Shown piece by piece: positions 7,855 to 24,591 of a DNA stretch of 37,244 nucleotides; the stretch's first letter is position 1; every line of letters starts with the position of its first letter. The notes beneath the pieces are model-generated. The model saw nothing but the letters and a program-made list of their open reading frames with translations. It did no database searches and was not told where the DNA came from. The stretch covers positions 1 through 37,244 of the forward strand of contig NZ_JAAKEB010000021.1 of the NCBI RefSeq assembly GCF_011038965.1. Reading direction: 5' to 3'. Position numbers and translations under genes: made by a program. Origin of the DNA: Adlercreutzia sp. ZJ141 (lineage in GTDB: Bacteria > Actinomycetota > Coriobacteriia > Coriobacteriales > Eggerthellaceae).

Positions 7855-9126
7855 ATGACTGACTACCATCCGATGTGGGAAGAACTTGGTATGGACCTCG
7901 AAACCCACGACCTGCTGTGCGACGCGCTGCCCGTAGCATTCGGCGACACGTACCTTTCCCAGGAAAACCGGCCCGAAAACATGGCGTTCTATGATTTCGT
8001 GGTGTCTGGTATCCATGGCATTCGCCCCGCCGAGTTTATCGAGATGAAGAAAGAGGGCCGCAAGGTGTTCGGCACGTTCTGCGTGTTCGTGCCCGACGAG
8101 GTGGTTGTTGCCTGCAACGGTGCCGTCACCGGCCTGTGTGGCGGATCGCAATTCTGGGTGCCTGATGGCGAGAAGCACATTCCTTCCGACACGTGCCCGC
8201 TGATCAAGGCGTCTCTGGGCGCGCATTTCGGCAAGACCTGCCCGTACTTCATGGTATCCGACATGTACGTGGGCGAAACCACGTGTGATGGCAAGAAGAA
8301 AGCCTACGAGGTGCTGGGCGCCGACAAAGAAACCTACATCATGGACATGCCACAGATGAAGCGCCCGTGCGACATCGTGAAATGGAAGGAAGAAATTGCC
8401 GCTTTCGCCGCGAAGGTCGAAGAGGTAACCGGCGTTACGCTCACGCCTGAGAATCTAGCTGAAGCTATCAAGGTGATCAACGCCAAGCGTGCAGCGCTCA
8501 AGCGTGTCTACGACTGCCGCAAGGCCGATCCGGTGCCCATCAGTGGCAAAGATGCCCTGCTCATGATTCAGATCGCCTTCTTCGACGATCCGGTTCGCTG
8601 TGCCGAGATGGCCAACAAACTGGCCGACGAGCTCGAGCAACGCATCGCCGACGGCGTAGGCGTGTTCCCGGCAGGCACCAAGCGTATCATGGTTACCGGC
8701 ACACCGCTGGCCATTCCCAACTGGAAGCTGCACCACATTATCGAAACGAGCGGCGCTGTGGTGGTGTGCGAGGACATGTGCACCGGATCGCGTTACTTCG
8801 AGAACCAGGTTGATGAGTCGGGCACCACGCTCGATGAGCAGTTCATGGCGCTATCTGAGCGCTACATGAAGAATAACTGCGCATGCTTCACGCCTAATCC
8901 AGGCCGTCTTGAGGACATCGTCCGTCAGGCGAAGGAATACCATGTCGATGGCGTTATCGACTGCAATCTCAAGTTCTGCACGTTGTACAACATCGAAAAG
9001 CAAAGTGTGGCCGATCTGCTGGCCGAAGAGGGCATTCCGTGCCTGAGCCTGGAAACCGATTACGCTGACAACGACGCTGAGCAGCTGCGCACCCGCATCG
9101 GCGCATTTGTGGAGATGCTGGGGTAG
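7855..9126 (+). CDS. Double-cubane-cluster-type protein (2-hydroxyacyl-CoA dehydratase subunit family), paralog 1
   Basis: A 423-residue protein of the HgdB/BcrB superfamily, most like YjiM and the double-cubane-cluster protein (DCCP) branch. DCCPs hold an [8Fe-9S] double cubane and, once reduced by an ATP-driven activase, reduce small substrates. Conserved cysteines: Cys76 in GTFC, Cys95 in GLCGG, Cys114 in DTCPLIK, Cys129 in KTCPYF, Cys144 in VGETTCDGKKK. Further on are Cys309 in MCTGS, Cys342/344 in CACFTPN and Cys375 in KFCTLYNIE. The end, ETDYADNDAEQLRTRIGAFVEML, matches the YjiM C-terminus closely. The open frame begins at 7744, but residues before 7855 do not fit. Compared with the paralog at 12571 it has about 40 extra N-terminal residues. 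First gene of an operon with Se/S-trafficking genes and an activase. Substrate unknown. Confidence 0.88.
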   Translation: MTDYHPMWEELGMDLETHDLLCDALPVAFGDTYLSQENRPENMAFYDFVVSGIHGIRPAEFIEMKKEGRKVFGTFCVFVPDEVVVACNGAVTGLCGGSQFWVPDGEKHIPSDTCPLIKASLGAHFGKTCPYFMVSDMYVGETTCDGKKKAYEVLGADKETYIMDMPQMKRPCDIVKWKEEIAAFAAKVEEVTGVTLTPENLAEAIKVINAKRAALKRVYDCRKADPVPISGKDALLMIQIAFFDDPVRCAEMANKLADELEQRIADGVGVFPAGTKRIMVTGTPLAIPNWKLHHIIETSGAVVVCEDMCTGSRYFENQVDESGTTLDEQFMALSERYMKNNCACFTPNPGRLEDIVRQAKEYHVDGVIDCNLKFCTLYNIEKQSVADLLAEEGIPCLSLETDYADNDAEQLRTRIGAFVEMLG

Positions 9127-9133
9127 AGCCGCA

Positions 9134-9409
9134 ATGCCGCTTTCGCGAAACGTCCGCTGTTACGCGCTTCTGAAAACGCACACCGACGTGTGGGCGCTCT
9201 TCGAAGCATGCAAAGAAGCTGGTGTAGAAGCGCGCATTGCGCCCACACCACGCCAAGCAGACACGCACGCGTCATGCGGCACGTCGCTTTTGGTTCCCTG
9301 CGATACTTCCGATGCCGTGCTCGCGCTTGCAAGCGAGCGCGGCATCGCTACGAACGGGGTTGTACGTGTACAAAACGCTATCGATCCTGCAAGGGATCGT
9401 TATTGCTGA
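9134..9409 (+). CDS. DUF3343 family putative Se/S carrier protein (divergent copy)
   Basis: A 91-residue protein starting seven bases after the stop of the double-cubane gene. It shows the DUF3343 plan: an opening strand (RCYALLKT), a helix (HTDVWALFEACKEAGV), a strand ending in IAPTPRQ, and the hallmark CGTS turn (Cys about residue 48) followed by a strand and helix. The canonical sequence after the Cys-Gly is different here (CGTSLLVP against CGLSWCAP in the copy at 11350), and the end is lengthened to RYC. NCBI names such proteins putative Se/S carrier-like; biochemical evidence is thin. Position implies service to the neighbouring iron-sulfur protein or YedF. Family assignment is by pattern, so moderately sure. 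Confidence 0.72.
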   Translation: MPLSRNVRCYALLKTHTDVWALFEACKEAGVEARIAPTPRQADTHASCGTSLLVPCDTSDAVLALASERGIATNGVVRVQNAIDPARDRYC

Positions 9410-9534
9410 TGCACTACTTGTCAAGACGCACGAATTCTCTACGTCCCATACAAAAGCGCGTACAAAAGCGCCGTGCACGATAATGATGGAAACCTGGCCG
9501 CAACTATGCTGCCGCAACAAGAAGAAAGGACCTG
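9410..9534 (+). other. Intra-operon gap
   Basis: 125 bases with no gene I can support. A short hairpin CGATCC/GGATCG (9382-9387 with 9394-9399) lies at the end of the preceding gene and may weaken read-through. The gap holds only the strong AAAGGA ribosome-binding site for the next gene. Confidence 0.4.
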
Positions 9535-10152
9535 ATGATCATGGACATGACTGTTGACGCATTGGGCGACAAGTGCCCGCTTCCTGTAGTAAAGGCGAAA
9601 AACGCCCTTGAGGTTATGGGTGAGGGAACGCTTGAGGTACTTGTCGACAACGAGACCGCCGTCACCAACCTGAAGAACTTCGCCGCAAAGAAACGCTGCA
9701 CCGCCGAAAGCGAGCAGCTGGCCGAAGCCAAATACGCCGTGCGCATTACGGCAACCGCCGAATCGCTGTGCGCTCAAACAGCACCCGAGGCCGATGCCGA
9801 TGCGACTGCGCCGGCAAAGAAGCCGGTTGTGGTCATCTCATCGAACCTCATGGGCTCAGGTGACGACAAGCTGGGCGCAACGCTCATGAAGGGATTCATC
9901 TTCGCTCTCACGCAGCAAGACACACTGCCGAGCGCCGTGCTGTTCTATAACAGTGGCGTCAAGCTTACGTGCGAGGGCAGCGAATCGCTCGATGACCTGC
10001 GTAGCCTCGCCGATTCCGGCGTGACTATCTTGTCGTGCGGCACCTGCCTACAAAACTTCGAGCTGTCCGACAAACTTGCTGTTGGCGAACCCACCAACAT
10101 GTACGTCATCGTGGAAACCCAGATGGAAGCCGGAGCCATCATCCGTCCATAA
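9535..10152 (+). CDS. yedF: Selenium-metabolism sulfurtransferase-like protein YedF
   Basis: A 205-residue two-domain protein matching the YedF type (TusA domain fused to a DsrE-like domain). Residues 3-75 are TusA-like with the CPLP active site (Cys14, in DKCPLPVVKAKNAL). After an acidic Ala-rich linker (about 82-96) the DsrE-like part (97-205) has VVISSNLMGSGDDKLGATLMKGFI, FYNSGVKLT and SCGTCLQNF (Cys168, Cys171). YedF was linked by comparative genomics to selenium-dependent molybdenum hydroxylases in genomes with SelD, and is proposed to carry persulfide or selenide. A good AAAGGA site precedes ATG 9535. Here it lies between DUF3343 and a cysteine desulfurase, the same trio seen in those selenium clusters, but next to double-cubane genes. 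Confidence 0.88.
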   Translation: MIMDMTVDALGDKCPLPVVKAKNALEVMGEGTLEVLVDNETAVTNLKNFAAKKRCTAESEQLAEAKYAVRITATAESLCAQTAPEADADATAPAKKPVVVISSNLMGSGDDKLGATLMKGFIFALTQQDTLPSAVLFYNSGVKLTCEGSESLDDLRSLADSGVTILSCGTCLQNFELSDKLAVGEPTNMYVIVETQMEAGAIIRP

Positions 10153-10212
10153 CGGATGCGCCCGCACCAATCCGTATGACGCCCTGCATCAACAAACGCA
10201 CGAAAGGCACTC

Positions 10213-11346
10213 ATGATCTACCTGGACAACGCAGCGACAACAATGCAGAAGCCGCCCGAGGTGGCCGAAGCAGTATGCGCTGCCATTAACGGATTCGGTG
10301 GCGTAGGCCGTGGAGCGCACGAGGCTTCGCTCGATGCTGGTGTCACCGTCTATCAAGCGCGCGCTCGGTGCGCCGAACTCTTCGGTGCGCCAAGCGCGTC
10401 GAGCGTCGCCTTCGCATCGAACATAACTGAGGCGCTCAATATCGCCCTTTGTGGCCTTCTAGGCGCAGGCGACCATGCTATCACCACCGCAGCCTCGCAC
10501 AACTCCGTCCTTCGGCCGCTCTATCGCCTGCAAGAGGAAGCTGGCGTTGAACTATCCATAGCGCCCATCGCGACCGACGGAACCTTATCCTATGAGCGCT
10601 TCGAAGAGCTGTTCCAAGAAAACACGAAGCTCATTGCTGTCACCCATGCCTCAAACCTCACTGGTCAGGCCTATGACATCGCACGCTTGGCAGCTATGGC
10701 GCATGCACATGGGGCGCTCTGCGTTGTAGACGCCGCTCAAACGGCCGGCAGTACGCCTATTAACATGACAACAGACGGCATTGACGTACTGTGCTTCACC
10801 GGTCACAAAGGGCTTTATGGCCCCCAAGGTACCGGTGGCCTATGCGTTGCCAAAGGGGTTCACATCCGCCCGCTAAAGGTTGGCGGCACCGGTGTACACA
10901 GCTACGACAAGCATCACCCCACCACTATGCCCGACTCATTGGAAGCTGGCACCATTAATGCTCATGGCATTGCTGGCTTGAAAGCCGGTGTCGAATTCGT
11001 GTTGCGCGAAGGGGTTGAAGTAATCGGCGAACACACGCACGGCCTTGCCGCACGTCTGCGCGAAGCGGTAGCAACTATCGACGGCATTACTGTGTATGGC
11101 GACGGCAGCCCATCGGCCATCGTGTGTTTGAACGTGCGTGACTACGATTCGTCTGAAGTAGCAGACGCCCTGTCTGTGGACTACGGCATCGCCACACGTG
11201 CAGGTGCCCACTGTGCCCCACTCATGCATGAGGCACTCGGCACAAGCGACCGCGGAGCTGTGCGTTTTAGCTTCGGCTGGTTTAGCACCGACGCCGACGT
11301 CGACGAAGCCGTGCGTGCGCTGCGCGAGATTGCGGCGGAGGAATAG
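10213..11346 (+). CDS. Cysteine desulfurase, EF2568-like class V aminotransferase family
   Basis: A 377-residue PLP enzyme. The PLP-binding lysine is Lys199 in FTGHKGLYGPQGTGGL, the cofactor aspartate is in VVDAAQTAG (about 171-179), and the catalytic cysteine is Cys334 in RAGAHCAPLMHEALGT. These enzymes take sulfur (or selenium) from cysteine (or selenocysteine) as a persulfide on the loop cysteine. The EF2568-like subfamily, to which the short N-terminus MIYLDNAATT and the AGAHCAP loop fit, is associated with selenium-dependent hydroxylase clusters. It follows YedF by 60 bases with AAAGG before ATG, and ends four bases before the second DUF3343 gene. In this operon it is the likely source of S or Se. 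A general SufS role is possible but no suf genes are nearby. Confidence 0.9.
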   Translation: MIYLDNAATTMQKPPEVAEAVCAAINGFGGVGRGAHEASLDAGVTVYQARARCAELFGAPSASSVAFASNITEALNIALCGLLGAGDHAITTAASHNSVLRPLYRLQEEAGVELSIAPIATDGTLSYERFEELFQENTKLIAVTHASNLTGQAYDIARLAAMAHAHGALCVVDAAQTAGSTPINMTTDGIDVLCFTGHKGLYGPQGTGGLCVAKGVHIRPLKVGGTGVHSYDKHHPTTMPDSLEAGTINAHGIAGLKAGVEFVLREGVEVIGEHTHGLAARLREAVATIDGITVYGDGSPSAIVCLNVRDYDSSEVADALSVDYGIATRAGAHCAPLMHEALGTSDRGAVRFSFGWFSTDADVDEAVRALREIAAEE

Positions 11347-11349
11347 CTT

Positions 11350-11595
11350 ATGGCGCTGCGCAAGAAAACGCCGCACGCGGTGCTTACCTTCCCCACCACG
11401 CAAGCCGCCATGGCCTTCGAAGAGGCTGCCCGCAGCTACAACCTACCCGGCAGGATGATTCCCGTTCCCTCGGCGATCTCAGCCGGATGTGGCCTGTCGT
11501 GGTGCGCGCCCACCGACAAACGCGACGAACTGCTTCGTGCATGCACTACCCACCAGCTTGATTACGAAGGTGTTCACACCGTCGATTTGTATTAA
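11350..11595 (+). CDS. DUF3343 family putative Se/S carrier protein (canonical copy)
   Basis: An 81-residue protein with the standard DUF3343 layout: strand HAVLTFPTT, helix QAAMAFEEAARSY, strand MIPVPSAISAGCGLSWCAP carrying two cysteines (about residues 47 and 51), then helix KRDELLRACTTH. The Cys-Gly turn after a Pro-rich strand is the family hallmark, and it is thought to carry a persulfide or selenide. GGAGG lies nine bases before ATG and overlaps the end of the desulfurase gene, so the two are translationally linked. Direct desulfurase-to-carrier transfer is an inference from this adjacency. Confidence 0.85.
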   Translation: MALRKKTPHAVLTFPTTQAAMAFEEAARSYNLPGRMIPVPSAISAGCGLSWCAPTDKRDELLRACTTHQLDYEGVHTVDLY

Positions 11596-11623
11596 CCATT
11601 CCTGCACCCCTTTGAGGAGAACC

Positions 11624-12370
11624 ATGATTCGCATTGGTATCGATATTGGATCAACCGCCACAAAGGCGGTCGCACTCGATGGAGAAGAACTCGCTTACAC
11701 ACTCGTATGCCCAACCGGATTCAGCAGTGTCGACGCCGCCGAACATGTGGCAGCGGATTTCGCGGACCATGACTACGACGTGCAGGAACTACCCGTTATC
11801 GCTACTGGCTATGGCCGAGTGGCTGTTCCTTATGCCGATAAGGTGGTTACCGAAATCACCTGTCACGGTAAGGGAGCATCGTTTTTGTTCGGGGGCGACG
11901 GCGCAGTGCTCGACGTTGGTGGTCAGGACACCAAGATTATCAACTTGCGCGGCGGGCGCGTGGTGAAATTCCTCATGAACGATAAGTGCTCGGCCGGTAC
12001 GGGCAAGTTCCTGGAAATCATGGCCAACCGTATGGCCGTCACTCAAGACGAACTGTCCGCACTCGCACGCAATGGCAAGCCGACCACCATTTCGAGCATG
12101 TGTACTGTGTTTGCTGAGAGCGAGGTTATCAGCCTTATTGGGAAGGGAGCTGCACGCGAAGACATTGCCAACGGTGTTATCGAATCCGTGGTGTCGAAGG
12201 TGTGCACACTCGCTTCTCAGATTAGCGCCGAGCAGTATTTCCTCACCGGAGGCCTGTGTGAGAACAACTACATCATCGAACGGCTTTCATCACACCTAAA
12301 AGCGCCGGTAACCACCGACCCACGCGCTCGATTCGCGGGTGCTATCGGCGCAGCACTCTGTGTTGAATAG
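11624..12370 (+). CDS. ATP-dependent activase of the HgdC/BcrA-BadF family (YjiL/DCCP-reductase-like)
   Basis: A 248-residue homodimeric ATPase of the ASKHA fold that drives an electron from one [4Fe-4S] cluster to its partner 2-hydroxyacyl-CoA dehydratase or double-cubane protein at the cost of ATP. The nucleotide motifs are GIDIGSTATK (5-14), LDVGGQDTK (96-104) and the late TGG (about 225). The two cluster cysteines are Cys122 in NDKCSAGTGKF and Cys160 in SSMCTVFAESE; each subunit of the dimer supplies both to one bridging cluster. The ATG at 11624 has GAGGAG upstream; the longer frame from 11489 overlaps the previous gene. As the only activase in the window it probably serves both double-cubane paralogs. 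Confidence 0.93.
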   Translation: MIRIGIDIGSTATKAVALDGEELAYTLVCPTGFSSVDAAEHVAADFADHDYDVQELPVIATGYGRVAVPYADKVVTEITCHGKGASFLFGGDGAVLDVGGQDTKIINLRGGRVVKFLMNDKCSAGTGKFLEIMANRMAVTQDELSALARNGKPTTISSMCTVFAESEVISLIGKGAAREDIANGVIESVVSKVCTLASQISAEQYFLTGGLCENNYIIERLSSHLKAPVTTDPRARFAGAIGAALCVE

Positions 12371-12570: not shown

Positions 12571-13725
12571 CTACAGCATTTCTATGAACGCAGCGACGCG
12601 CGTGTTCAGTTGTCCCACATCGGAGGTCGAGTAGTCGGTTTCTATCTGCAGGTACGGCAAGCCCTTTTCCTCGTTTACGAACTTCTCAATAGACTTCGCT
12701 TCCACCGCATAGGTGTGGCATGCCGACAGCGTCATCTCCACTACGCCGTCAATGTGATACTCATCGATGAGTCGACCCATAAGCTCATAACGGTTCGGGT
12801 TCGGCGTCATCACCGAACACCCGATATTCAGGTAACGCTCGGCGAGCGCATGGTACACATCAGGATCATCCTCGTTGACCAAACGATCGAACGACTTCGT
12901 GCCTGAGCAGTTTTCAAACGCCACCACGATGCCACCGTTGTCCTCTACGGCCTTCAAAACTTTGGTGGTCACGCCGCCCATCGGGCAGCCAGTTATGAGA
13001 ATGCGCGGCTTCTTGGGCTGCATTTTGCCTTCAGCGTATTCAGCTTCAATCTTGTCGGCAATAGCATTCAGCTCAGTTGTCGATTCAGCCTTGTCAAACT
13101 TGAAGCCTACGCCATACATGACGTTAAACAAGTCGCCACCCGTGATGGGTGCCGGGTCATGCAGCATCACATCGGTTAGCTTCTTCATAGCCAGACGATT
13201 CTCGTTGTTTACGCGGATTGCCTCAGCGATCGCTTCCTCGGTGATGGTCACGTCGAACTTATGCTCGAGGTACTCCTTCATCTTCACAATCTCGGCGCGC
13301 CACAGAGCCAATGCGTCGGCATCCTGCGAGTTCGGCAGGTTCATGATGTACACGTCCTTGCCCAACTGTGCCATGAGTTCATACATCTTCTTCTTGCCGT
13401 CACAGGTAGTCTCTCCCACTACCAGGTCGCTAAAGTAGAAGAACGGGCACTTGTCGGTTTTGGCGAAACCGTAGCTCGATTTGATGAGCGGACACAGGTT
13501 TCGCGGCAGATCCTTTTCGGCGTCGGGAATGGTTTCGTCCGACACCGAGCACAAGCCAACCACCGAAGCGCCAAACGCCATGGCCAGTTCATGCGGGAAA
13601 TACGTGCAGTAGATTCCCACCACGGGAACGTCTTTGTCTTTCAGGGCCTTCACTCCCAGAAACGCCTGCTGACGCGCCTCGGCAAAATCATCGAACACAT
13701 CAGGCAGTGATTTTACAAGCTCCAT
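12571..13725 (-). CDS. Double-cubane-cluster-type protein, YjiM-like, paralog 2
   Basis: A 384-residue protein strikingly similar along its whole length to E. coli YjiM: IYCTYFPHELAMAFGA, LCSVSDETIPDAEKDLPRN, LCPLIKSSYGFAKTDKCPFF, SDLVVGETTCDGKKKMYE, ITGCPMGG, and the end ETDYSTSDVGQLNTRVAAFIEML. Cluster-region cysteines are Cys40, 59, 78, 93 and 108, with later ones in ENCSGTKSF, IGCSVMTPN and SACHTYAVE. The family carries an [8Fe-9S] double cubane and needs an activase (YjiL in E. coli). Here the activase is the convergent neighbour ending at 12370. AGAGGAAG precedes ATG 13725. Its own transcription unit; the 250 bases upstream (to 13978) hold only an inverted repeat TTCCAGC/GCTGGAA (13801-13807, 13819-13825). 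Physiological substrate unknown. Confidence 0.92.
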   Translation of the reverse strand: MELVKSLPDVFDDFAEARQQAFLGVKALKDKDVPVVGIYCTYFPHELAMAFGASVVGLCSVSDETIPDAEKDLPRNLCPLIKSSYGFAKTDKCPFFYFSDLVVGETTCDGKKKMYELMAQLGKDVYIMNLPNSQDADALALWRAEIVKMKEYLEHKFDVTITEEAIAEAIRVNNENRLAMKKLTDVMLHDPAPITGGDLFNVMYGVGFKFDKAESTTELNAIADKIEAEYAEGKMQPKKPRILITGCPMGGVTTKVLKAVEDNGGIVVAFENCSGTKSFDRLVNEDDPDVYHALAERYLNIGCSVMTPNPNRYELMGRLIDEYHIDGVVEMTLSACHTYAVEAKSIEKFVNEEKGLPYLQIETDYSTSDVGQLNTRVAAFIEML

Positions 13726-20457: not shown

Positions 20458-21385
20458 GGTCGCCCCCCTTCTTGCCAATAGGCAGGTTGCAGGTGATGTG
20501 CTCTTTAACGGACTCGGTGTCTTGGCCGTCGCCGTGCTTTATAACCTCACCTGTCTCAAGACTAATCGTGTCTTCGGTTTCGGCGTTGTACGCTAACTTG
20601 TCGCGCTTGTAGCCAGCGGCCAAACCGAACATGACAGCCAAACCAATCACGGTAGCACCTGCCACCACGCCCGTGACGGGCTTCATGATGTTGGTAAGTG
20701 TGGTAATGGGGCTTACCTTCGGGTCGAGAACCTGACCGTGTGCCTCAACGCCGTACTTAAACACCTGAATGACATGCAGACCGCCTATCTCTTCGGCACC
20801 ATAGATGACGGCATGTTCGTACCCGCGACTTTTCAGCATCGCGAGGCGTTTCTCGGCTTCGGCCAGCATCTCGTCGCGATCGCCAAAGGAAAGTGCTTCG
20901 GGTTGACACGTGGACACACAAGCCGGAGCTATACCCTGTTCGATGCGATCAACGCACCCCGTACACTTATTCACTTTACCCTGCATGCCATTGTAGCGTG
21001 GCACGTCGAAGGGGCAGGCCGTAACGCAATAGTGACAGGCGACGCACTTCGAGGCATCAACAGTCACCATGCCGCTTTCTTCGTGCACGTACAAGGTTCC
21101 CGACGGACAGATGGACGCACACGGCGCATCGGTGCAGTGCTGACAAGAACGGCGACCAAATGCCCAGGCAACCGGCTTGTTCGGCAGCGCACCATCCGCT
21201 TCGCTGTACGTCATAATCAACCGCGTTGCGCCATTAAGGTCGGGCGGGTTTTGATGGGTTCCGCTAAACGTATTCTCGTTGAGTCTCGTCGGGGACGGCA
21301 AAACATTCCAACACTTGCACGCGATCTGGCACGCATGGCAGCCTGTACAGCGTGATGTGTCGAATAGGATCGCTTTCTCAGCCAT
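20450..21385 (-). CDS. Formate dehydrogenase iron-sulfur (beta) subunit
   Basis: A 311-residue FdnH-like electron-transfer subunit with four [4Fe-4S] clusters. The cysteine sets are visible: CTGCHACQIACKCW near the N-terminus, CQHCTDAPCASICPSG, CVACHYCVTACPFDVPRY, and CTGCVDRIEQGIAPACVSTCQPEAL. A single membrane helix near residues 237-257 (VTGVVAGATVIGLAVMFGLAAG) anchors it. It has no signal peptide, so it is expected to be carried across the membrane with the Tat-exported alpha subunit. Its ATG overlaps the alpha-subunit stop (TAATG), and GGGAGG precedes it. Length is slightly above that of FdnH because of a charged C-terminal tail of about 50 residues. Confidence 0.95.
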   Translation of the reverse strand: MAEKAILFDTSRCTGCHACQIACKCWNVLPSPTRLNENTFSGTHQNPPDLNGATRLIMTYSEADGALPNKPVAWAFGRRSCQHCTDAPCASICPSGTLYVHEESGMVTVDASKCVACHYCVTACPFDVPRYNGMQGKVNKCTGCVDRIEQGIAPACVSTCQPEALSFGDRDEMLAEAEKRLAMLKSRGYEHAVIYGAEEIGGLHVIQVFKYGVEAHGQVLDPKVSPITTLTNIMKPVTGVVAGATVIGLAVMFGLAAGYKRDKLAYNAETEDTISLETGEVIKHGDGQDTESVKEHITCNLPIGKKGGDHE

Positions 21386-24300
21386 TACCTCTCACCTCCC
21401 GTGGCCTTCTCGATGTTGACGAGGAAGGCTTTGTACTCGGGCGTGAACGAATTAGGATCGACCACATTCGGAGTCAGGTCATTCACGGTGGCAGCCTCAG
21501 TTCCGAACACGCCGGCCCAGCTGTAGTGGTGCGTAAGTCCCACCAGATGTTGCTGACCGCCATGTACCTGCAACGGTTTTACACGCTTGGTGACAACTGC
21601 AGCAACTTCAACCGATCCGCGATTGTTGAACACGCGCACCTTGTCACCCGACTCGATTCCCTTCTCGGCAGCCAGTTCTTCGGATATTTCAATAAACTGT
21701 GCGGGCATAGCCTCCACAAGCGCCGGACACATGCGAGTTTGTCCTCCGCCCTGCCATTGCTCAGTCACCGAATAGGTGGTGGCCACAATCGGGTAATCGG
21801 ACGCATCGCCGTGCTTGGTCGATTCGTATTCGGCAAACGACATGCACGGTGAAGACAAAGCGCCATTGAGCAAGTTTTCGCCTACTGGACTCTCAAAGGG
21901 TTCATAGAATTCCGGCAAGGGTCCGTCCACCATGCCATAGCTTTCCAGCCGGGCGTTTTGTTCCCACAGCATGAAGAACGACTTATCGTCGGGGGGAACG
22001 GGTACGCCGTTATTGGCGGCAACAAAGTCGGCTTGATCCACCAGATCCCACTTCTCCCCCGTCCATTCCACAAGCTTCTTGTCGGCAGCCCACGGCTTGC
22101 CATTCATGTCAGCCGAATTGCGGTTATATAGAATGCGGCGGTTTGCCGGCCAGCTGAACGCCCAATTGGAGTACAAGCCCAAACCCGATTCGTCGTTGTT
22201 GTCTCGCCGACCGACAGGCTGAGCGCTCGGGTCGAGCGGGGCGTTGTTGTTGTTCCAGAAGCCGGAATAGATCCACATAGCACACGCAGTGGAGCCATCG
22301 GCGGCCAGTTTCGAATAGCTGGGAAGCAAGTCAACCTTGCCTTCGGCGAGATTGGAATCTGAAATGCGGTAGCCATTCAGCGCCCACGCAACGGTGCGCG
22401 GGTCTATCTTGCCGTCGATGTAGTAGTCCCACTTAGTGTTGAGAATGGGGTCGGGGTTTGCGCCGTCCTCGTCCTCATAGAGCCTGCATATTTCGGTCCA
22501 CAGAAGATCACACATCTCGAAGTCGGGCTTGGCTTCCTCCCATGGCTCTAACGATTGGTAGCGGTATTGCAGCCAGCGGCCGGAGTTTACGACAATACCC
22601 GGCTTCTCATAAATGAGTGCAGCCGGCAGGAAGTACACCGTGGTGTTAATGTCGGCCGGGTTCATGTCGGGTGCCTTCCAGAAGGTGGCAGACTCAGTGG
22701 CAACCAGATCGGCTACCACGAGCCAATCGAGATTCGCCATAGCACGACGCACGTTGGATGCATTCGGTGCGGAATGGCACGGGTTCATACCCCAGCAAAA
22801 GAAGCCCTTGATGACATCTTGGCTCATGAGCTCGAACGTGGAAACATGTGTGTAGTCCGGATCGGTTTTCTTGGAAGGAACTTTTGGCCACCAGTCGTAG
22901 CCGTAGTCGTTGTCCACCGTGGCGGCGTCGCCAAACCATTCCTTGAGTGCCGAGATCATAAACTTGGGCTTGTTGGTGTAATAACCGTCCGAATTCGTTT
23001 GAGACTCGAGCCACTTGCGCAACGACGAGCGATCGGTGGTGTTTGCCCATTTCAGGTATCCCGGCTGCTCATTAACGAGCATGCCCATGTCGGTTGCGCC
23101 CTGAACGTTCGGTTCGCCGCGTAACGCATTCACTCCACCGCCCGGCACGCCAACGTTTCCTAACAGCAGCTGCATAACCGACATGGCGCGCGTATTCTGA
23201 GCACCATAGGTGTGCTGCGTCTGGCCGAGCGCGTACAGGATCATGCCCGCCTTGCCGGGAGCCGCCGTTGCCGAATACGTTTCGTATACAAGCTCGAGTG
23301 TTTCTTTATCCATGCCGCAAATGTTGCACACGGTGTCCAGGTCGTAACGAGTGTAGTGGTTTTTGAGCTGCTGGTACACACACATCGGATCGGCAAGCGT
23401 CATATCTCGCTTGGGATGTTTAACAACAGGCGGCGTGAATTCAGGCACGCCATCGGCAACCGCCCATGCGTATGCGCCAGTTGTATCCCATTCTTCAACG
23501 GAATCGGTTTGGTAGCGCCACGAGTTGTTGGAATAGCTCTTGGTTGCCTCGTCGAAGCCTGAGAACAAGCCCGATTCCACGTCGAAATCGTATTCGGGAT
23601 CGAGTAAGTAGCTGGCATTGGTGTAGTTGAGCAAGTACTCAAAGTTATAGTCGGGAACTTCCTTGCCCGCCAGGTAATCGGCCAAATTGGGCTCGATGAG
23701 GCGTTCGATAATGTAGTTAAACATGCCACCGTAAAACGCGATGTCCGTACCCGATCGAATAGGGCAGTAGATATCGGCCATTTCAGCTGTGCGGGTGTAA
23801 CGAGGATCGACCACGATCCACTTCGCTCCAAGCTCATGTGCCTTGTTCAGCCACTTAGAGCCAACCGGATGATTCTCGACAGAATTTGAACCGCAATGCA
23901 AGATGACGTCGGTGTTTCTAAAGTCACACCAATGGCTCGTCATCGAACCACGACCAAATGATGCCGCCAGACCGGCGACAGTTGGGCCGTGTCAAACACG
24001 GGCTTGATTGTCGATCGCAACGACACCAAGCGAGCGCATCATCTTCGTGATGAGGTACTCTTCCTCGGAGTTCTGCTGCGAACCGCCCAGGCTTGCAATG
24101 CCAGGGGTCCAGTTGACGGTTAGGCCGTCCTCGGTTTCTACGAAGGTGGCGTCACGCGTTTCCTTCACCTTGCGCGCGATTTCTGCGACGGCGTCATCCC
24201 AGGTGATCGGCTCCCATTCAGATGCGCCAGGGCGGCGCACCATGGGCTTCGTCACACGACCAGGGTTTTTCATCACCTCGCGCGTTTTCGGGTCGACGAT

Positions 24301-24591
24301 GTTGCGCAGCTGGAACATCGAAGCGCCCTTCGGGCATAATCCGCCCTTGTTGACTGGATGATCTGGATCTCCTTCAACGTTGATTAGCTCGCCATCGCGC
24401 ACCGAACACAAGGAACCGCATCCTCCAGCACAATAGCAGCAAACATTGGTGCGTTCTTCGGTGTTTACGAGTTTCCAATCGGATGCGGGCTCAACAGCGA
24501 GCGCGCTCGATTGCGAGCTCAGCTCAAACGCCATACTCGCAGCGAAGGCGGCACCAGTTGCTGTGAAGAAGCCCCTGCGTGTCAGGTCCAT
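21385..24591 (-). CDS. Selenocysteine-containing formate dehydrogenase, catalytic (alpha) subunit
   Basis: A 1068-residue FdnG-like Mo/W-bisPGD enzyme oxidising formate to CO2 in the periplasm. A plain translation splits in two because of an in-frame TGA at 23992-23994. It falls exactly at the selenocysteine position of FdnG (…NQARV-Sec-HGPTVAGLA…), making Sec residue 200. The frame continues without shift to 21385. Tat signal: TRRGFF (4-9) and hydrophobic region to about 32. The [4Fe-4S] motif is CCYCAGGCGSLC (51-62) with CPKG following. Later conserved parts include DFRNTDVILHCGSN and HPVGSKW. The SECIS hairpin lies just after the TGA. GGAGGG precedes ATG 24591. Selenocysteine machinery (selA, selB, selC, selD) must be elsewhere. 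Confidence 0.97.
23955..23994 (-). promoter_or_regulatory. Bacterial SECIS element with UGA codon
   Basis: Directly downstream of the UGA, the message forms CGCC-GGUCU-GGCG (23974-23977 pairing with 23965-23968, loop 23969-23973). The GGUCU apical loop is the one known from E. coli fdhF, where it binds SelB. Position about 17-30 nt after the UGA is as expected for a bacterial SECIS. Confidence 0.88.

Follow-up and report, generated by a model that had tools for sequence, protein, structure and literature searches.

A six-gene operon of Adlercreutzia joins a double-cubane-cluster reductase to putative selenium/sulfur carriers and possibly acts upstream of SelD

A six-gene operon of Adlercreutzia sp. 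ZJ141, carried by a stretch of 37,244 nucleotides (contig NZ_JAAKEB010000021.1 of assembly GCF_011038965.1; the whole stretch is called the window below), brings together a double-cubane-cluster protein (DCCP), an activase, two DUF3343 proteins, YedF and an EF2568-type cysteine desulfurase. In the genomes sampled, DCCP is found almost exclusively in selenium users; this suggests a part in selenium handling, and the operon is tentatively read here as a selenium-handling unit upstream of SelD. This proposal starts from what was observed, namely the gene content, the conserved adjacency of the genes, the company that DCCP keeps with SelD, the existence of a DUF3343 subtype that partners DCCP, and the link of this subtype to the desulfurase gene.

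The genes are all on the plus strand in the order DCCP1-DUF3343-YedF-desulfurase-DUF3343-activase, occupy positions 7855-12370 and are separated by gaps of 7, 125, 60, 3 and 28 bp. Each scores above the curated cut-off of its family, which bears out the tight same-strand order of six genes that a preliminary description of this DNA had read there.

7855-9126, plus strand: DCCP1, long-type double-cubane-cluster reductase of the HgdB superfamily (NF040772, 484 bits, cut-off 350; PF06050, 408 bits)
9134-9409, plus strand: DUF3343a (Se_S_carrier), DCCP-partner subtype, with a core Cys48 and a C-terminal RDRYC tail in which Cys91 is the last residue (PF11823, 53.5 bits, cut-off 25)
9535-10152, plus strand: YedF, with a TusA-like N-terminal domain (TIGR03527, 207 bits, cut-off 110; PF01206)
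10213-11346, plus strand: EF2568-type cysteine desulfurase, or probable selenocysteine lyase (TIGR01977, 407.6 bits, cut-off 377)
11350-11595, plus strand: second DUF3343, general subtype with the motif SAGCGL and without a terminal Cys (PF11823, 75.4 bits)
11624-12370, plus strand: ATP-dependent activase of the BcrAD/BadFG family, acyl-CoA-dehydratase type (TIGR00241, 240 bits, cut-off 125; PF01869, 188 bits)

YedF holds the motifs CPLP and CGTC, the Cys of which are invariant in an alignment of 13 sequences, and one Cys-Gly pair is invariant among 28 aligned DUF3343 sequences. The activase is likely to be the electron donor of DCCP and would serve DCCP1. In a scan for promoters and terminators, the signal did not rise above the shuffled mean plus its spread.

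DCCP1 matches the PDB chains 7yyl and 6eno from end to end (residues 3-422, 448 bits), N-terminal extension included; these solved structures are annotated as 'Dehydratase family protein' in the search output, and we take them to be the DCCP of Carboxydothermus hydrogenoformans. Eight Cys, candidate ligands of the two cubanes, are invariant among 12 aligned DCCPs. DCCP1 falls in the single clade that unites the DCCPs of the long type (22 of 119 tips, support 0.998). In vitro, double-cubane reductases act on acetylene and other small compounds like it, and we know of no natural substrate for them. The Carboxydothermus protein is said to have been studied without YedF, DUF3343 or desulfurase partners and to have been given no selenium role, and it has reportedly been produced with its cluster in E. 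coli, its own partners being absent.

The distribution of DCCP is the evidence that carries most weight. Among 119 genomes of the window's class, Coriobacteriia, an above-cut-off DCCP was found in 50, and all 50 carry SelD, which is present in 98 of the 119 overall. Within the window's order, Coriobacteriales, DCCP occurs in 28 of 43 genomes with SelD and in none of the 19 without it, and the distribution of YedF is exactly that of SelD (43 with, 19 without); in one genus (g18), DCCP is found in 10/10 SelD-bearing genomes and 0/4 SelD-lacking ones. The same company is kept in a sample of 243 Clostridia, a class taken as that of Claveliimonas monacensis (G123, locus L097), which was itself picked for having DCCP: all 34 genomes with DCCP have SelD (60/243 overall) and YedF (63/243 overall). 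The association of DCCP with SelD in this sample gives a Fisher p of 2e-25, or 7e-25 when G123 is left out, and these values, like those of the other Fisher tests here, are too small since related genomes are counted as independent. Taken from the other side, DCCP is missing from every SelD-lacking genome sampled, 0/21 in the class and 0/183 in Clostridia.

Weaker matches and other samples help to mark out the rule. HgdB relatives under the DCCP cut-off are the only such matches in eight genomes of the class, three of which lack SelD (G051, G083 and G089), and two DCCP-like matches under the cut-off in Clostridia are divided between a genome with SelD (G311) and one without (G397). YedF occurs without SelD in 5 of the 63 Clostridia that carry it. 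SelD was also found in 49 of 50 named genomes with DCCP, drawn from the 78 that account for the best 80 loci (out of 586 confirmed relatives). In a control set of 14 named genomes, DCCP, DUF3343 and SelD (E 1e-30) each gave a match in E. coli and M. jannaschii only.

The genes of the operon stay together well beyond this strain. A full-length YedF is present in 43 of the 62 sampled genomes of the order, the window genome counted, and a desulfurase gene lies within 2.5 kb of it in 41 of the 43; the 10 kb around YedF hold a DUF3343 gene at 41 of these loci, DCCP at 25, the activase at 24 and SelD at no fewer than 33, the SelD figure being a lower bound. The arrangements vary, including DCCP-DUF3343-YedF-desulfurase-DUF3343-activase (as in the window), DCCP-DCCP-activase-SelD-YedF-DUF3343-desulfurase, DCCP-activase-YedF-DUF3343-desulfurase, DCCP-DUF3343-activase-desulfurase-YedF-DUF3343 and others, and this repeated reshuffling of order with company kept argues for a functional tie among the genes. 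In 25 of the 28 DCCP-bearing genomes of the order, no more than 10 kb separates DCCP from YedF, against 0.34 expected by a uniform-position estimate; in the other three, YedF is 40 kb away, about 25 kb away, or on a different contig. A strain-specific coincidence is rejected by this survey, which the preliminary description had called for, and the module proves to be conserved across genera beyond chance, in part also in named Firmicutes and Enterobacteria.

In Clostridia, 47 DCCP copies in the 34 genomes were divided solely by open-frame length into 19 long ones (at least 420 aa) and 28 short ones. The matched region has a DUF3343 gene no more than 140 bp away in 18/19 long copies and no more than 5.1 kb away in 9/28 short ones, and DUF3343, YedF or SelD is found within 10 kb of some DCCP copy in 28 of the 34 genomes. 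For the long clade as a whole, DUF3343 is within 300 bp in 13/22 (5/5 in named Firmicutes) and within 5 kb in 20/22. SelD and YedF neighbour DCCP directly in several genomes. In the scan of named genomes, 586 relatives were confirmed and the best 80 used, with neighbours up to 10 kb on each side and several loci being short contigs; the anchors are all of the short YjiM type, and five of the loci also hold a long DCCP. Among these best 80, the activase is found in 53, DUF3343 in 30, the EF2568 desulfurase in 16, YedF in 11, SelD in at least 8 (again a lower bound) and methyltransferase genes of the URO-D family (Mlp-like) in 9.

Two variants of the neighbourhood were also seen. At six loci (L037-L040, L042 and L044), a tandem of long and short DCCP is followed by one activase, SelD, YedF, DUF3343 and desulfurase, and the long DCCP has no directly adjoining DUF3343. 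In the rest of the class, beyond the order, the only counterpart of YedF is a separate protein that corresponds to its C-terminal, DsrE-like half (L079-L085, families f4-f18), and, judged from coordinates, many of these half-YedF genes stand beside SelD and some beside DCCP.

The DUF3343 protein next to DCCP is of a particular kind. A terminal Cys is present in 13/13 DUF3343s within 300 bp of a long-clade DCCP and in 2/73 others, one of these two exceptions being a contig-break case. In Clostridia the corresponding figures are 7/18 for partners and 1/20 for controls chosen away from long DCCPs. Moreover, the terminal Cys goes with the desulfurase: counted over unique genomes, DCCP-adjacent DUF3343s carry it in 16/16 loci that hold a desulfurase gene and in 3/14 that do not (Fisher 7e-6), although L216, counted among the 14, lies on a contig of just 5.6 kb, beyond which a desulfurase could sit. 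At four of the 16 loci (L230-L233), the desulfurase beside the long DCCP is 613-657 aa long; the two of these proteins that were checked have an N-terminal Diphthami_syn_2 domain fused to the EF2568-like part, and they score 256 and 286 bits on TIGR01977, under its cut-off of 377. A double-Cys CCG motif, found in 6/13 of the first set, was rejected as a general mark of DCCP partners.

DUF3343 has been proposed as a selenium/sulfur carrier in the accessible part of PMC5322559. The AlphaFold2 model of DUF3343a has a ferredoxin-like core (mean predicted local distance difference test score, pLDDT, 81) and a tail of low confidence from about residue 81, and because of this low confidence Cys91 is predicted probably to sit on a mobile arm. 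It is a reasonable reading that the terminal Cys takes persulfide or perselenide from the desulfurase. A search with the predicted fold gave no PDB match at E 0.001, with weak ACT/PII-like matches only, and a sequence search of the PDB with DUF3343a gave none up to E 1.

Outside the operon, the window holds three further features that bear on selenium and on DCCP.

12571-13725, minus strand: DCCP2, second double-cubane reductase, short YjiM type (NF040772, 530 bits, cut-off 350)
21385-24591, minus strand: formate dehydrogenase alpha subunit with selenocysteine, TGA being read as U200 (TIGR01553 on both halves; an open frame with one TGA)
23939-23997, minus strand: SECIS_3 selenocysteine-insertion element (RF01989, 64.2 bits, gathering 63)

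The formate dehydrogenase alpha subunit appears as two genes in a plain list of open reading frames. SelD of this genome (G000:C37:174440-175369) scores 341 bits and contains an in-frame TGA. Contig C37 (164500-183500, L086) bears a separate selenium locus with YedE, a TusA-like protein, a third DUF3343, SelD and tRNA-Sec. Because the formate dehydrogenase TGA with its SECIS_3, SelD, YedE and tRNA-Sec are present, the host very probably uses selenium for selenocysteine. DCCP2 is convergent with the operon, shares 39% identity with DCCP1 and falls outside the long-type clade. It has no adjoining activase gene except that of the operon, and on its own strand it is preceded by genes for a hydrogenase protease, a cytochrome b and hydrogenase subunits and, farther off, by the formate dehydrogenase.

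The strictness with which DCCP accompanies SelD speaks more for a step in selenium metabolism than for the supply of sulfur to build the cluster. The preliminary description had offered two roles, carriers that supply S (or Se) to build or run the enzyme and a low-potential step of the enzyme in Se/S metabolism; the second gains from the company of SelD, and sulfur supply for the cluster comes out as the less favoured. The substrate, the direction of transfer and the chemical steps that we infer for the operon are these. The EF2568-type enzyme would take selenium (or sulfur) from selenocysteine or cysteine, and the atom would be loaded as perselenide or persulfide on the Cys carriers, namely both DUF3343 proteins and YedF. 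DUF3343a, which stands beside DCCP and has a probably flexible, Cys-ended tail, would present the selenium to DCCP, and the ATP-driven activase would charge DCCP with low-potential electrons. DCCP would then reduce the delivered selenium and free selenide, which SelD would convert to selenophosphate for selenoproteins, the formate dehydrogenase of the window among them.

It is a more doubtful idea that DCCP is a selenium-dedicated reductase, to whose double-cubane site the terminal Cys on the swinging arm of a DUF3343 subtype would bring zero-valent selenium (perselenide) from the desulfurase and where ATP-driven reduction would free selenide for SelD; a bolder version would have selenium as the bridging atom of the DCCP cluster in vivo. 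The arrangement recalls, by analogy, that of DsrC and DsrAB, in that a chalcogen would be delivered to a reductase by a small protein whose flexible tail has a Cys near its end. For DUF3343a the predicted fold is ferredoxin-like. In other genomes, methyl-selenide demethylation clusters may feed DCCP instead, and the Mlp-like methyltransferase genes found beside DCCP elsewhere, which the accessible part of PMC10418091 links to methyl-selenide, fit the selenide-supply end.

A number of findings weigh against the proposed place of the operon ahead of SelD in selenium handling. DCCP is missing from about half of the SelD users (48/98 in the class and 26/60 in Clostridia), so DCCP is not required for selenide production in general. 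One named genome with DCCP, the metagenome-assembled G145, gave no SelD match, and SelD of the window genome is on a contig other than that of the operon. Among the best 80 named loci, 39, several of them on short contigs, have no selenium or carrier gene found nearby except the activase. A two-domain YedF above the cut-off was found in 0/14 control genomes, both DCCP-bearing ones included. In the window's order, DUF3343 is within 300 bp of long DCCP in just 8/17 and within 5 kb in 15/17. The terminal Cys is absent from 11/18 Clostridia partner DUF3343s. DUF3343 itself occurs in 15 of 20 SelD-lacking Clostridia tested (of the 183), so the family is not selenium-specific, and DUF3343 alone was rejected as a selenium marker on this count. 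The desulfurase, finally, reaches 321 bits on the SclA selenocysteine-lyase model NF040779, under the cut-off of 525.

Some of these findings would suit a grouping by shared regulation only, in which the genes are brought together for conditions where selenium is available and DCCP reduces another small molecule in anaerobes that favour selenoproteins. The many SelD users without DCCP agree with it, as does DCCP2, which adjoins hydrogenase genes and has no carriers on its strand. Anaerobic life alone is insufficient, however, since HgdB relatives under the cut-off do occur in SelD-lacking genomes (three of the eight noted above), and the pairing with one DUF3343 subtype at 140 bp or less is tighter than co-regulation requires. 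We consider this explanation possible, though rather unlikely.

Cluster assembly stands slightly lower and is judged unlikely. By this account, the desulfurase and the carriers provide DCCP with the extra sulfide (or selenide) bridging its two cubanes, so that the module matures DCCP, whose own reaction may be unrelated to selenium handling. The place of DUF3343 directly beside long DCCP in nearly all Clostridia copies is as would be seen for a dedicated maturation partner, and the activase and desulfurase are often in the same DCCP neighbourhood. A need purely for sulfur, however, leaves the absence of DCCP from all SelD-lacking genomes unexplained, and no carrier gene was found nearby in the 39 of the best 80 named YjiM-type loci counted above. 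Furthermore, the Carboxydothermus DCCP reportedly received its cluster when made in E. coli in the absence of its partners.

It is very improbable that the module serves selenium-dependent molybdenum hydroxylases with DCCP as an incidental neighbour. YedF and the EF2568 desulfurase do belong to the phylogenetic profile of that system in the accessible part of PMC2276186, and among the best 80 named loci the marker yqeB (TIGR03309) was found near DCCP in at least 4, a lower bound, and yqeC in 3. Against this, yqeB is absent from the window genome and from 18 further members of its family that were sampled, 13 of these 19 carrying YedF and SelD all the same, and it is likewise absent from the class outside the order (0/57), where SelD (55/57) and DCCP (22/57) are common. 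The 30 of 119 class genomes that have yqeB all belong to two other families of the order, and among SelD-bearing genomes DCCP and yqeB are without significant association (19/50 vs 11/48, p 0.13). The hydroxylase reading is rejected for the window genome, in keeping with the preliminary description, which had seen no molybdenum hydroxylase gene here, and in this family the carriers are not bound to one. That the DCCP1 gene encodes a subunit of a 2-hydroxyacyl-CoA dehydratase or benzoyl-CoA reductase of the ordinary kind, working in fermentation, is barely credible and was rejected, for although all of these share the superfamily PF06050, DCCP1 scores far too low on the models for dehydratase (112.8 bits, cut-off 700) and benzoyl-CoA reductase (93, cut-off 454), its best full-length PDB matches are 7yyl and 6eno, and the operon encodes no dehydratase partner subunit.

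Related gene sets are known from other organisms. In E. coli K-12, yjiM (DCCP, 531 bits), yjiL (activase) and ytiA (DUF3343, PF11823 49 bits) are contiguous and form a related trio with the DCCP, activase and DUF3343 of the window. The E. coli DCCP is of the short type, its displayed neighbours include no desulfurase or two-domain YedF, and YtiA, unlike DUF3343a, has no terminal Cys. A closer match is provided by Slackia heliotrinireducens, for which Table 1 of Lin et al. 2015 (PMC5322559, accessible part) lists Shel_25420-25470 as activase, DUF3343, Sec lyase, YedF, DUF3343 and a 2-hydroxyglutaryl-CoA dehydratase subunit, the six names and their order matching the operon as judged by names and tag numbers alone. 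The dehydratase-like gene and the activase figure there merely as STRING partners of YedF, with no discussion of them in the part of the paper available. TIGR03527 and EF_2568 have been linked to selD in PMC2276186 (available in part), which we take to be Haft and Self 2008.

PMC10418091, in its accessible part, links DCCP provisionally to selenium and places DCCP and its reductase, together with Sec lyase and selABD, among the known or putative selenium genes in a figure; DCCP and its reductase also go with the type I mlp (methyl-selenide) clusters described there. These clusters are built round corrinoid methyltransferases, of which there are none among the six genes of the window, and DUF3343, unlike in the window operon, has no occurrence in that text. 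The statement of the preliminary description that the link was undescribed thus needs correction, because the available parts of these sources list the gene set for Slackia and count DCCP as a putative selenium gene. In the literature searched, the coverage of which was partial, neither the SelD rule nor the DUF3343 subtype was found stated, nor any mechanism that connects YedF or DUF3343 with DCCP. What is apparently new is the SelD rule, together with the DCCP-partner subtype of DUF3343 whose terminal Cys goes with a desulfurase gene.

The near-absolute company of DCCP with SelD in the sampled genomes, E. coli yjiM included, narrows the search for the substrate of DCCP to selenium chemistry, and the orphan DUF3343 family gains a specific partner in DCCP. 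If the proposal is true, nitrogenase-like iron-sulfur chemistry would serve the supply of a trace element, and the swinging-arm reading would provide a selenium counterpart of the DsrC-DsrAB arrangement.

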